This document shows positions 3,291 through 48,635 of a DNA stretch of 49,350 nucleotides, one piece after another. Position 1 is the stretch's first letter. Each line of letters opens with the position of its first letter. Both the position numbers and the translations under genes were made by a program. The stretch lies in assembly GCA_902597895.1 (NCBI GenBank), contig CACJZM010000003.1, positions 1 to 49,350 of the forward strand, given 5' to 3'. This DNA comes from an uncultured Pelagibacteraceae bacterium. Its GTDB lineage: Bacteria > Pseudomonadota > Alphaproteobacteria > Pelagibacterales > Pelagibacteraceae. Below the pieces are notes generated by a model that was not told where the DNA came from, did not search any database, and saw nothing but the letters and a program-made list of their open reading frames with translations.

Positions 3291-5056
3291 TAAACTAAAG
3301 TTTTACCCTTGCCTGAAATTTTGTTATTTTTTTGGTCTTTTGGACCTAAAAGCATTTGATTATGTGGCTTACCTGAAGGTATCATTGGAAAACAATTTTC
3401 CTCTTTATCAACCAAACAATCAAAAATTACTGGTCTATCTGTATTAAGCATTTCAATAATTTTATCATCTAACTCTTCAGGCGTTTTAGCTCTAATACCA
3501 ACACAACCGTACGCCTCTGCCAATTTTACAAAATCAGGAAGGGCAGCTGTATAACTTTCGGAGTAATTTTTATCATGTAAAAGTTCCTGCCATTGTCTAA
3601 CCATTCCCATATATTCATTATTTAATATAAAAATTTTTATCGGTAAACTGTACTGAACTGCAGTGGACATTTCCTGCATAGTCATCAATACTGATGCCTC
3701 ACCCGCAATATCAATAACTAATTTATTTGGATGTGCAACCTGAACCCCGACAGCAGCAGGTAAACCATACCCCATTGTTCCTAAACCTCCAGAGGTCATC
3801 CATCTATTAGGTTTATTAAATTTATAATGTTGAGCTGCCCACATTTGATGTTGTCCAACTTCAGTCGTAATAAATGTTTCCTTGTTTTTTGTTAGCTCAT
3901 ACAACCTCTCTATAGCATACTGAGGTTTAATGCTTTCTTCACTATTAATGTAATCCAATGACTTAATGGATCTCCATTTTTGAATCTTTTCCCACCACTT
4001 TGAAATCTTTTGTCTGTTAGATTTTGAAAAATTAAGTTTTCTCTTTGAAATTGTTTTAATTGTTGCTTTAATAACATCAGTTACATCACCAATAATTGGT
4101 AGATCAACCTTCACATTTTTATTTATTGATGATGGGTCAATATCAATATGAACCTTCTTTGACTTAGGTGAAAACTCATCTAATTTTCCAGTAATTCTAT
4201 CGTCAAATCTTGCTCCAATGTTAATCATTAAATCACACTCATACATTGCATTATTAGCTTCATAAGTTCCATGCATTCCTAACATACCCAAAAATTGGTT
4301 ATCATCTCCTGGGTAAGAACCTAATCCTTGTAATGTTGTAGTGATTGGAAAACCAGTAATACTTACTAGCTCTCTCAATAAGGTACTGGCTTGTGGACCT
4401 GAGTTTATTACTCCTCCACCAGTATAAAAAACTGGTTTAGATGAATTTGACATTAATTTAATTAGTTCATCAATTTCTTTTTGTGAAAAAAGGTTTTTAC
4501 CTTTTCCATTTAATTTTTTAAGTTTGCTATATTTTTGGTATTTAGTTTTTTGAAACTGAATATCTTTTGGAATATCAACTAATACTGGACCTGGTCTTCC
4601 ACTAGTAGCGACCTCAAAAGCTTTGTGAATAGTTTTAGCTAAATCTTTAACATCTTTTACTAACCAATTATGTTTAGTGCATGGTCTTGTTATACCTGTG
4701 GTATCACATTCTTGAAAAGCATCAGTTCCTATTAGATGGGTTGGAACTTGTCCAGATATACAGACTAACGGGACCGAGTCCATGTAAGCATCGGTTAAAG
4801 CTGTAACTACATTTGTTGCGCCAGGACCTGAAGTAACTAAAACTACACCTGGTTTTCCTGTAGATCTTGCATACCCCTCAGCAGCGTGACCAGCACCCTG
4901 TTCGTGTCTTACTAAAATATGTTTTACAGATTGATGATTTTTCAATTCATCATATATAGGAAGAACTGCACCTCCAGGATATCCAAATACATTTTCAACA
5001 CCTTGATCTTCAAGACATTTAAATACTATTTCTGCACCTGAATATATTTTAGACAT
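3290..5056 (-). CDS. ilvB: Acetolactate synthase large (catalytic) subunit
   Basis: This thiamine-diphosphate enzyme makes acetolactate or acetohydroxybutyrate from pyruvate. All three family domains are present in 588 residues. The catalytic Glu is E52 in RHEQGAGHAAEGYAR, the FAD/central domain covers roughly 195-335, and the C-terminal ThDP domain carries the metal motif from 452 to NN at 479-480. That motif reads G-E-A-S where the family normally has G-D-G/A-S, a conservative Asp-to-Glu change at a cofactor-metal ligand. The gene is first in an ilvB-ilvH-ilvC run and lies 47 bases downstream of miaA. Symbol ilvI would be equally acceptable. Confidence 0.96.
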
Positions 5057-20887: not shown

Positions 20888-22240
20888 CTAAACTTCTATC
20901 TTTGAAAAGTTAAAATAATTATCGAAGCTTTTACACAACATTTTTAAAAGTTCTAGCCTATTTTTTTTAATCATTTTCTCCTCAGCATTTACTTTAACAT
21001 TGTTAAAAAAATTATTTACCTCAGTTTTTGCACTAGAAAGTATTTTAAGCCCTTGTTCGTAGTTTTCATCTCCTCCTACACTAGAAAAATATTTCCTTAT
21101 CTCATGTATTTTTTTATATAAATTCTTTTCGTATTCATTTTTAAACAATCCTGGGTCAGCAGTTCCTACCAAATCTAATTCTTCTTGTTTTTCATTAGTA
21201 AGAATATTGGATGATCTCTTATAAATAGCTAGTGCATCTAAACCAAAATCTTTTTTTATATTTTTATTTAAAAAAATAGATTTTTTATAAATTTTCATTA
21301 AATCATCAACTCCAAAAGAAGATATGGAGCTGTCAATAATATCCGATCTTATTTGCTTATCTTTAAGATAGTTTTTCAATCTATCTAAAATAAATTCGCT
21401 TAATTCATTTTGAATTTTTTTAGTTTCAAATTCATAGCCCTGATCTTTGTAAAGTGTACAGGAGTAATTTAATAAATCCCTGATTTTTATTTTTTTTTCA
21501 TTCTCAACAATTAATCTAACTAAACTAATGGCCATCCTTCTTAAAGCATAAGGATCTTTTGAACTCGATGGTCTTAAATCAATGCCAAAAAACCCGACTA
21601 AAGAATCTATTTTATCACTTAAAGACAATGCGATACTGTAGGGCTTTTTTGGAATTTTACTATCCATTCCTAATGGGAGATAATGCTCTGATATAGCTAG
21701 ACTAACTTCTTTTTCAAAACCTTGAGCTTCAGCAAAATATCCACCCATAACACCTTGTAGCTCAGGAAACTCAGCAACCAAGTCTGACATTAAATCTACC
21801 TTGCAAATTGACGAGGCAATTTCTATTTTTTCTTTACTAATTAAAAATTCGTCTGAGATAATTGCGCTTAACTTTCTCATTCTTTGAATTTTATCAAAGT
21901 AAGAGCCCAATCCCTTAAAGTAATTAATATTTTTTAATTTTGATATTTGTTTAACTAAGTTTTGGGACTTATTTCTATCCCAAAAAAACTCTGCATCACT
22001 TAATCTAGCATCTATTACTCTTTCGTTTCCTATTTTTACCAATCCTTTTGGATCATTGATATCCGCAACTACTATAAAATTATTCGTTAAATTAGATTTG
22101 TTATCTATAGTAGAAAAATATTTTTGATGTGTTTGCATAGTAGTAACTAAAATTTCACTAGGAATATTTAAAAATCTCTTATCAAATTCACACACCAAAA
22201 TTTTTGGTTTCTCAACTAAATCTGTAACCTCATTTAGCAA
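20888..22240 (-). CDS. glyS: Glycyl-tRNA synthetase beta subunit, C-terminal part (after in-frame stop)
   Basis: This frame continues GlyS from the segment LLNEVTDLVEKPKIL to the C-terminal helical/anticodon-binding domain. TTMQTHQKYFS, DARLSDAEFFWDRN and the DPYALRRMA segment are family hallmarks. It is in the same frame as the upstream part but separated from it by one TAA (22279-22277), then AAA codons from a run of 14 A. If translated separately it would have to start at a TTG (22240) with no visible Shine-Dalgarno. Together the two parts give the normal length of about 685 residues. I infer one interrupted gene rather than two evolved subunits. Confidence 0.85.
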   Translation of the reverse strand: MLNEVTDLVEKPKILVCEFDKRFLNIPSEILVTTMQTHQKYFSTIDNKSNLTNNFIVVADINDPKGLVKIGNERVIDARLSDAEFFWDRNKSQNLVKQISKLKNINYFKGLGSYFDKIQRMRKLSAIISDEFLISKEKIEIASSICKVDLMSDLVAEFPELQGVMGGYFAEAQGFEKEVSLAISEHYLPLGMDSKIPKKPYSIALSLSDKIDSLVGFFGIDLRPSSSKDPYALRRMAISLVRLIVENEKKIKIRDLLNYSCTLYKDQGYEFETKKIQNELSEFILDRLKNYLKDKQIRSDIIDSSISSFGVDDLMKIYKKSIFLNKNIKKDFGLDALAIYKRSSNILTNEKQEELDLVGTADPGLFKNEYEKNLYKKIHEIRKYFSSVGGDENYEQGLKILSSAKTEVNNFFNNVKVNAEEKMIKKNRLELLKMLCKSFDNYFNFSKIEV

Positions 22241-22276
22241 TTTTTCATTTAAATTTACTTTAAATTTTTTTTTTTT

Positions 22277-22951
22277 TTAAGCTTTTATAATTTCTTTTAT
22301 AATGAAATCTTTTCTTAATTCTTGATCAATAATAATATTATTTAATTTAAAAAATTTTTCATAGTTTTTAAATTCAGTAAATTTTTTCAAATTTTCCTCT
22401 AAATTTTTGTCAACAAATGTTTTGTTAGAGCTCTGGAGATGATTCAAATTAAAATCTAGAATTGATTTATCAAATACTGCTAAAATTGATTTAAGTGGCC
22501 TGCCCCAATAAAGATTATGCTCTCCCCATCTCATTGATTTTTTCCAAGAGATTTTTGCTAATAATTTTTTAATGTTGTCTCTAAAAAGCTGATGAGTACT
22601 TATTTTTACTGAAGGTTTTTTAAAAAAAAAGAATTCACCTTTGTCGGTAGTTTTTTTATAAACTTGACTCTTGTTTATTTGATTTGATTTTAAAAAACCC
22701 TGTAATGCCATATCTTGTGAATTTACACTCGGGCCTCTAATTTCTAAGGATTTTTTTTCAATTTCTTTTGGAATTTTATCTATATAAAGCACTAATCTAT
22801 TTGGTGTAGAAAAAGACTTAACCTTGCTGTTAATAGTTATATCGTTTTCATCAAGAAATTTTTGAAAAATTTCCTTCAATTCATTTCTAGCATTTGATTG
22901 TAAGTTAGCAGGTATTTCCTCACTAAATAATTCTAAAAAAAATTCAGACAT
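22277..22951 (-). CDS. glyS: Glycyl-tRNA synthetase beta subunit, N-terminal part (ends at in-frame TAA)
   Basis: The N-terminus MSEFFLELFSEEIPANLQ is typical of GlyS, as are KSMRWGEHNLYWGRPLKSI and the following segment. The ATG at 22951 was chosen because it sits just after the glyQ stop (TGA, one base, ATG) and gives the canonical N-terminus; a start at 22984 would add 11 unlikely residues. The frame ends early with KEIIKA-stop, where other GlyS proteins continue into the LLEEVT-type segment. The stop is followed directly by A14 on the coding strand. Substitution of one T would restore the frame. Confidence 0.88.
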   Translation of the reverse strand: MSEFFLELFSEEIPANLQSNARNELKEIFQKFLDENDITINSKVKSFSTPNRLVLYIDKIPKEIEKKSLEIRGPSVNSQDMALQGFLKSNQINKSQVYKKTTDKGEFFFFKKPSVKISTHQLFRDNIKKLLAKISWKKSMRWGEHNLYWGRPLKSILAVFDKSILDFNLNHLQSSNKTFVDKNLEENLKKFTEFKNYEKFFKLNNIIIDQELRKDFIIKEIIKA

Positions 22952-22952
22952 T

Positions 22953-23843
22953 TCAATTTTGACTTTCAATCCAAATTTTACCAATCTCCTTTGTAAGATC
23001 TCTAATCCTTGCTATATATTCTGCTCTTTGGGCAACACTTATTACTCCTCTCGCATCTAATAAATTAAATACGTGGCTTGATTTTAAGCACTGATCATAT
23101 GCGGGGAGTGAAATTTTTTTTTCAATTAAAGATTTTGCTTCGCTCTCTAACATATCAAAGATTTTGAATAGATTTTCTGTATTAGCATAATCAAAGTTAT
23201 ATGCAGAAAACTCTTTTTCTGATTGATGAAAAACATCCCTATATAGAATTCCTTCATTATTCCATGCTAAATCAAAGATGTTCTTTTTATTTTGTATAAA
23301 CATGCACAATCTTTCTAATCCATAAGTAATTTCAACTGAAATTGGATTACATTCTAATCCAGCCATTTGCTGAAAATATGTAAACTGAGTAACTTCCATG
23401 CCATCACACCAAACTTCCCACCCAAGACCTGCCGCTCCCAATGTTGGACTTTCCCAATCGTCTTCAACAAATCTAACATCGTGATCTTTATGATCTATTC
23501 CAATAGCTGTTAAGCTATTTAAATAAAGTTTTTTAATTTCTTTTGGAGATGGTTTGATTAAAACTTGAAATTGATAGTAATGTTGTAGTCTATTTGGATT
23601 ATCACCATATCTTCCATCTGTTGGTCTTCTTGATGGTTGAACATAAGCAGTTTTCCATGGTTTAGGTCCTAATGACCTGAGGGTGGTAGCTGGATGAAAA
23701 GTTCCTGCACCAACTTCTAAATCATATGGTTGTAGAATTACACAACCTTTTTTAGACCAATATTTCTGTAAATTTAATATTGTATCTTGAAAAGAAATAA
23801 AACTCGTTATCTTTTTACTTTTTTTCTTAATTTTAGAAACCAT
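22953..23843 (-). CDS. glyQ: Glycyl-tRNA synthetase alpha subunit
   Basis: GlyQ is the catalytic class II subunit of the bacterial alpha2-beta2 glycyl-tRNA synthetase. Hallmarks are [19 protein letters not shown], the [20 protein letters not shown] motif and [26 protein letters not shown]. The 296 residues are normal, with about 15 extra Lys-rich residues at the N-terminus. It overlaps the upstream peptidase gene by 11 bases and leads directly into glyS. It needs GlyS for tRNA binding, so the state of glyS matters for cell viability. Confidence 0.97.
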
Positions 23844-47919: not shown

Positions 47920-48108
47920 TTACAAGATAACATTTGTGAATACATTTTGTACATCATCATCTTCATTTAAAATATCAAGAAAATTGATTAAATCCTCTTT
48001 AGAAATTGATGAAAGTTTTATATTGTTAATGGATATCCACTCTATATCTGTTGATATAAAATTAGAAATATTTTTTTCTAAGGTTTTTTTTACCGTATAA
48101 ATACTATT
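47920..48108 (-). pseudogene. yebC: YebC, displaced C-terminal part (frameshift)
   Basis: After the frame of the upstream part ends, the next minus-strand frame encodes the exact YebC C-terminus: NSIYTVKKTLEKNISNF, then TDIEWISINN, and EDDDVQNVFTNV before the TAA at 47922-47920. Adding one A to the A6 run at 48112-48107 joins the two parts as CEKNSIYTVKK. The joined protein would have about 238 residues, the normal YebC length. There is no start codon of its own, so this part is either lost or the frameshift is a sequence error. Confidence 0.85.
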
Positions 48109-48635
48109 TTTTCACATTGTATTTCATGAAAATTTTCCCTAGAGATACATTCTTTTGCTCCACTTTCTGCTGCTATTTCAAAAATTTTTTCATCTGATAT
48201 CTCTGATTTAGGAATTTTTATTACACCTACTTGATTGAAATTATGTGATGCAGAACCAGATGTTCCTAGGTTACCACCATTTTTTTGAAATATTGCTCTT
48301 AGATTTGATGCTGTTCTATTTTTGTTATCAGTAAGAGTTTCGACTATTACTGCAGTATTGTGGGGACCAAATCCTTCATATCTAATATTTTCATAATTAC
48401 TACCAGAGTTTAATTCAGATTTATCAATCGCTCTTTGAATGTTATCTTTAGGCATATTTGCTGATTTTGCAGATTGTATAGCTGATCTTAATCTAGAATT
48501 CATACCTGGGTCTTTATCTCCAAGTTTAGCTGCAACTGTTATTTCTCTTGAAAGTTTAGAAAATAAATTAGATCTTAATTTATCAGCTCTACCTTTCTTG
48601 TGCTTAATTCCTGCCCAATGTGAGTGACCTGCCAT
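48090..48635 (-). CDS. yebC: YebC/PmpR-family translation or regulatory factor, N-terminal part
   Basis: YebC proteins aid translation of difficult proline stretches or act as regulators; the family is widespread. The N-terminus MAGHSHWAGIKHKKGRADKLRS and REITVAAKLGDKDPGMNSRLRSAI are diagnostic. FGPHNTAVIVETLTDNKNRT and the GTSGSASHNF loop follow. The frame ends after HEIQCEKIVFIR at 181 residues, about 57 short, because of an apparent one-base loss in a homopolymer. The remaining domain is found in another frame just downstream. It starts 9 bases after the ymdB-like gene. Confidence 0.92.
   Translation of the reverse strand: MAGHSHWAGIKHKKGRADKLRSNLFSKLSREITVAAKLGDKDPGMNSRLRSAIQSAKSANMPKDNIQRAIDKSELNSGSNYENIRYEGFGPHNTAVIVETLTDNKNRTASNLRAIFQKNGGNLGTSGSASHNFNQVGVIKIPKSEISDEKIFEIAAESGAKECISRENFHEIQCEKIVFIR

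Follow-up and report, generated by a model that had tools for sequence, protein, structure and literature searches.

An in-frame stop at the edge of an A run in a Pelagibacteraceae glyS gene: probably a one-base error or an isolated mutation, not a novel form of split gene

The window analyzed here, a 49,350-nucleotide stretch from the genome of an uncultured Pelagibacteraceae bacterium, contains a glycyl-tRNA synthetase (GlyRS) beta-subunit gene, glyS, whose frame is interrupted by a single TAA. The best explanation is an ordinary single-chain beta-subunit gene in which the TAA is probably a wrong base in the assembly, placed at the edge of a homopolymer, with a sense codon at that position in the living organism. 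On our best reading, a consensus or amplification error ranks first and a true private nonsense mutation second; judged from sequence comparison, the pattern points to one of these two and not to a new kind of split gene. The features on which the argument draws are listed below.

20888-22984, minus strand: glyS, glycyl-tRNA synthetase beta subunit, whole region; PF02092 matches both parts, which a single TAA divides
22280-22984, minus strand: N-terminal part of glyS, 235 codons ahead of the stop; PF02092 positions 1-225
22277-22279, minus strand: in-frame TAA, glyS codon 236; the aligned codon in relatives encodes Thr, Ser, Ile or Leu
22265-22278, minus strand: run of 14 A on the coding strand, its first two A also ending the TAA
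20888-22276, minus strand: C-terminal part of glyS, open to its natural end; PF02092 positions 231-534 plus the DALR anticodon-binding domain
22238-22240, minus strand: TTG, proposed as a restart; a conserved Leu of the NEKLLNEV block, hence no evidence for a start
22953-23843, minus strand: glyQ, alpha subunit, intact; TIGR00388 above cut-off, no stop

Across the whole glyS region, PF02092 scored 550 bits, and the N- and C-terminal parts reached 160 and 373 bits on their own (cut-off 29.2), with a gap of only 5 model positions between them. The true start codon probably lies a little inside 22984. Translated through the TAA, the gene has 698 codons compared to 687-709 amino acids (mostly 691-698) in intact relatives, which bears out the earlier note's observation that the two parts lie in one frame and together give a protein of normal length. 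Taken together, the two parts cover nearly the whole model, and in this, in its length, in its anticodon-binding domain and in its gene order with glyQ, the gene resembles the beta subunit of bacterial heterotetrameric GlyRS (GlyS, PF02092; structures 8ie2, 7yse and 7eiv). It differs by the one in-frame TAA at codon 236, which leaves the assembly without an uninterrupted single reading frame for GlyS. The partner alpha gene is present, as glyQ adjoins glyS upstream (TIGR00388, 477 bits). In the genome, which is 83% complete, we found one PF02092 match and no alpha2-type GlyRS above cut-off; two weak TIGR00389 matches, considered as a second GlyRS, both fell in one 639-amino-acid ORF below cut-off and were rejected.

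At the break, the coding strand reads GAA ATT ATA AAA GCT TAA AAA AAA AAA AAA TTT AAA GTA. The glyS frame is open on the minus strand save for this TAA (22279-22277), which sits at the 5' edge of the 14-A run. Of the window's 33 homopolymer runs of 9 or more, it is the longest, ahead of runs of 13 and 12. The GCT TAA followed by AAA codons and 14 A is thus as the earlier note had read it, and its argument that a single run-length error offers no explanation stands, because both parts share a frame. Its proposal of a substitution-type change also stands, but not in the form of TAA against AAA, since relatives have no Lys at this position (ACT, TCA, ATT or CTT); the implied change would be the substitution of a Ser/Thr/Ile/Leu-type codon.

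The stop is private to this genome among the relatives compared. Using the C-terminal part of glyS as query, we obtained matches in 152 of 201 same-genus genomes; among the matches listed, almost all lay in full-length, stop-free frames of 687-734 codons, the exceptions being mostly contig-edge fragments. One contig-edge fragment (G196, contig C37:1-588) carries one in-frame TAG. A codon alignment of 109 glyS loci shows the TAA column free of stops in all relatives: ACT predominates in the nearest large clade, other relatives have TCA, ATT or CTT, and several of these codons differ from TAA by one substitution. The earlier note had looked to homologues for a sense codon here and no second fragment, which is in substance what the relatives have, though not as the AAA, CAA or GAA that it had named.

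Downstream of the stop, the C-terminal part is 72-76% identical to relatives, equal to the identity between intact relatives, and its ratio of first- plus second- to third-position codon differences is 0.29-0.37 compared to 0.29-0.41 among intact relatives. The N-terminal part is 63-65% identical to relatives versus 65-70% for the closest comparisons. Because the C-terminal part resembles intact genes in both identity and codon-position ratio, glyS has not decayed and shows no sign of lost constraint past the TAA, which makes the stop either very recent or not real. The window glyS stands apart from its relatives, on an end branch of 0.25 and with 72% as its best identity. No same-species genome was found among 399 same-genus genomes, where the nearest DNA match was 75% identical, or in a scan of genome contigs (best protein identity 77%), and an exact-pattern search of viral contigs gave no match.

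We infer that the wrong base has a technical origin and is not a real mutation. It would have been made by amplification, sequencing or consensus calling, at the junction of unique sequence and the 14-A run. We favor this reading because GlyRS is essential and glyS single (one PF02092 match, no alpha2-type GlyRS and an intact adjacent glyQ), because the TAA is private to this genome, because the constraint on the C-terminal part shows no decay, because the lesion lies at the window's longest homopolymer and because the same assembly has further lesions, in yebC and an exoI homologue. Counting against it, substitutions are less typical of homopolymer errors than indels. The private stop, the intact constraint, the homopolymer edge and the other lesions likewise sustain the earlier note's proposal of a consensus error or a recent mutation.

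Published error rates are a further reason, as they predict false stops. A marine single-cell workflow gave 1.5 misassemblies, 3.0 indels and 5.0 mismatches per 100 kb (PMC6122165). We computed that 6.2% of substitutions in glyS yield a stop, and at the published rate about 3 false stops would be expected per 1-Mb assembly, taking this genome too to be of single-cell origin. Such an origin is suggested by the isolate names of many relatives, which are of single-cell style, and by the contigs sampled from this genome, whose numbers follow decreasing length.

To count lesions elsewhere in the genome, we compared proteins from 800 kb of a complete relative (G012) with 380 kb of the genome, covering 186 proteins and 192 kb of conserved coding sequence in sampled stretches, and discarded stops that belonged to antisense ORFs or lay upstream of the real gene start (most of those flagged). 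Three convincing lesions emerged in the 192 kb: glyS, yebC and the exoI homologue. The same method yielded none in two control genomes, G042 (190 kb, 181 proteins) and G117 (168 kb, 161 proteins), and the published error rate therefore marks the upper end of what to expect in genomes of this kind. The 527 kb of coding sequence surrounding glyS in 78 other SAR11 loci held two lesions, at A8 and T7 runs. The excess in this assembly is modest (Fisher p about 0.04, on small numbers and tested after the fact).

The yebC homologue (window 47920-48635, minus strand) is the second broken conserved gene in the window. It is frameshifted, with the break near 48100-48112: codons 1-174 (79% identity to G012) and codons 177-237 (56%) occupy different frames, as would be expected had a short A run near 48105 gained or lost one base.

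The exodeoxyribonuclease-I-like gene (the exoI homologue) has a clean in-frame insert of 51 nt between ...SNI and GFDDE... (L204 about 1440-1560, equal to contig C1 of this genome at about 55245-55300, minus strand). The insert contains an in-frame TAG and a G+C-rich hairpin (CCCCCTCTTTTTATAAGAGGGGG) that occurs once in the genome. No stop in this gene was listed for the 106 other same-genus genomes that have it, and the insert had no match among phages and viral contigs. Hairpins of the form CCCCCTC-GAGGGGG in four other genomes were considered as copies of it and rejected, being intergenic, beside T runs and terminator-like. The insert could be an artefact or a small mobile element; as Gly codons flank it, it could conceivably also be a translational-bypass gap like that of T4 gene 60.

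The two lesions in other genomes are frameshifts in glyS of L104 (A8 run, about 3980-4000) and in sppA of L074 (T7 run, about 1088-1125). Like the stop in the window glyS, each breaks a gene, is private to one genome and lies at an A/T run, but the window lesion is an in-frame, substitution-type stop. In these assemblies, A/T runs are where gene-breaking lesions cluster.

It is possible, but a good deal less likely than a technical error, that the sampled cell or strain had acquired a true nonsense mutation very recently. GlyS would be truncated, and the sequence would represent a dying cell or a rare variant soon to be lost. The TAA is one substitution away from codons present in relatives, long A runs are mutation hot spots, and intact downstream constraint is what a very recent change should leave. 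Nevertheless, GlyRS is essential and has no second copy in the 83% complete genome, and a lineage with the lesion should not persist, so this explanation needs a single doomed cell to have been sequenced.

By comparison, a GlyS that works in split form or by read-through is very unlikely, and we give hardly any credence to a TAA that is real and fixed in the lineage, with a two-chain GlyS or one produced through efficient read-through. A split beta subunit that functions, itself highly improbable, would combine a separate N fragment (the B1-B2 region) with a C fragment holding most of B3, HD and the anticodon domain, assembling in trans. The position of the break would suit such an arrangement: in an alignment with the E. 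coli beta subunit it falls at about residue 237, where the sequence is variable and rich in Lys, and thus lies beyond the limits of both B2 (65-125) and HD (341-540; PMC8464048), and just five Pfam-model positions are missing between the parts. However, the split is present in no aligned relative, and the junction has neither a start codon nor a Shine-Dalgarno sequence. Both pieces would also be needed, as an E. coli subunit that lacks B1 no longer forms the tetramer (PMC8464048), and a truncated chain should therefore not work alone. The re-initiation that the earlier note had suggested at TTG 22240, 36 nt downstream of the junction, is rejected because this TTG specifies a Leu conserved as part of NEKLLNEV and has no Shine-Dalgarno sequence ahead of it; conservation also runs upstream from it to the stop, and the restart is an artefact of the ORF caller.

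Least probable of all is a full-length GlyS obtained by TAA read-through or by slippage on the A run. Transcriptional slippage rescues poly(A)-tract frameshifts in the AT-rich endosymbionts Buchnera and Blochmannia (PMC3017870), cases that share with this one an essential gene, an AT-rich genome and a long A run; glyS, however, has no frameshift for run length to repair, both parts being in the same frame, and since its stop begins upstream of the run, any number of A keeps GCT TAA in frame and slippage cannot remove it. Read-through, another suggestion of the earlier note, fares no better: TAA is the main stop, closing 33 of the 47 ORFs in the window, and in 17 of these the four-base context is TAAA, as at the glyS stop; the context is not conserved and no UUA-anticodon (suppressor) tRNA was found among 32 tRNA genes in the 83% complete genome. 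A literature search on stop read-through in SAR11 returned nothing relevant.

If the stop were true and tolerated, it would represent a rare case of an essential synthetase that is split or made by read-through. The case also serves as a caution: where an essential gene looks broken in a SAR11 assembly, the break should be supported by reads before any biology is read into it.
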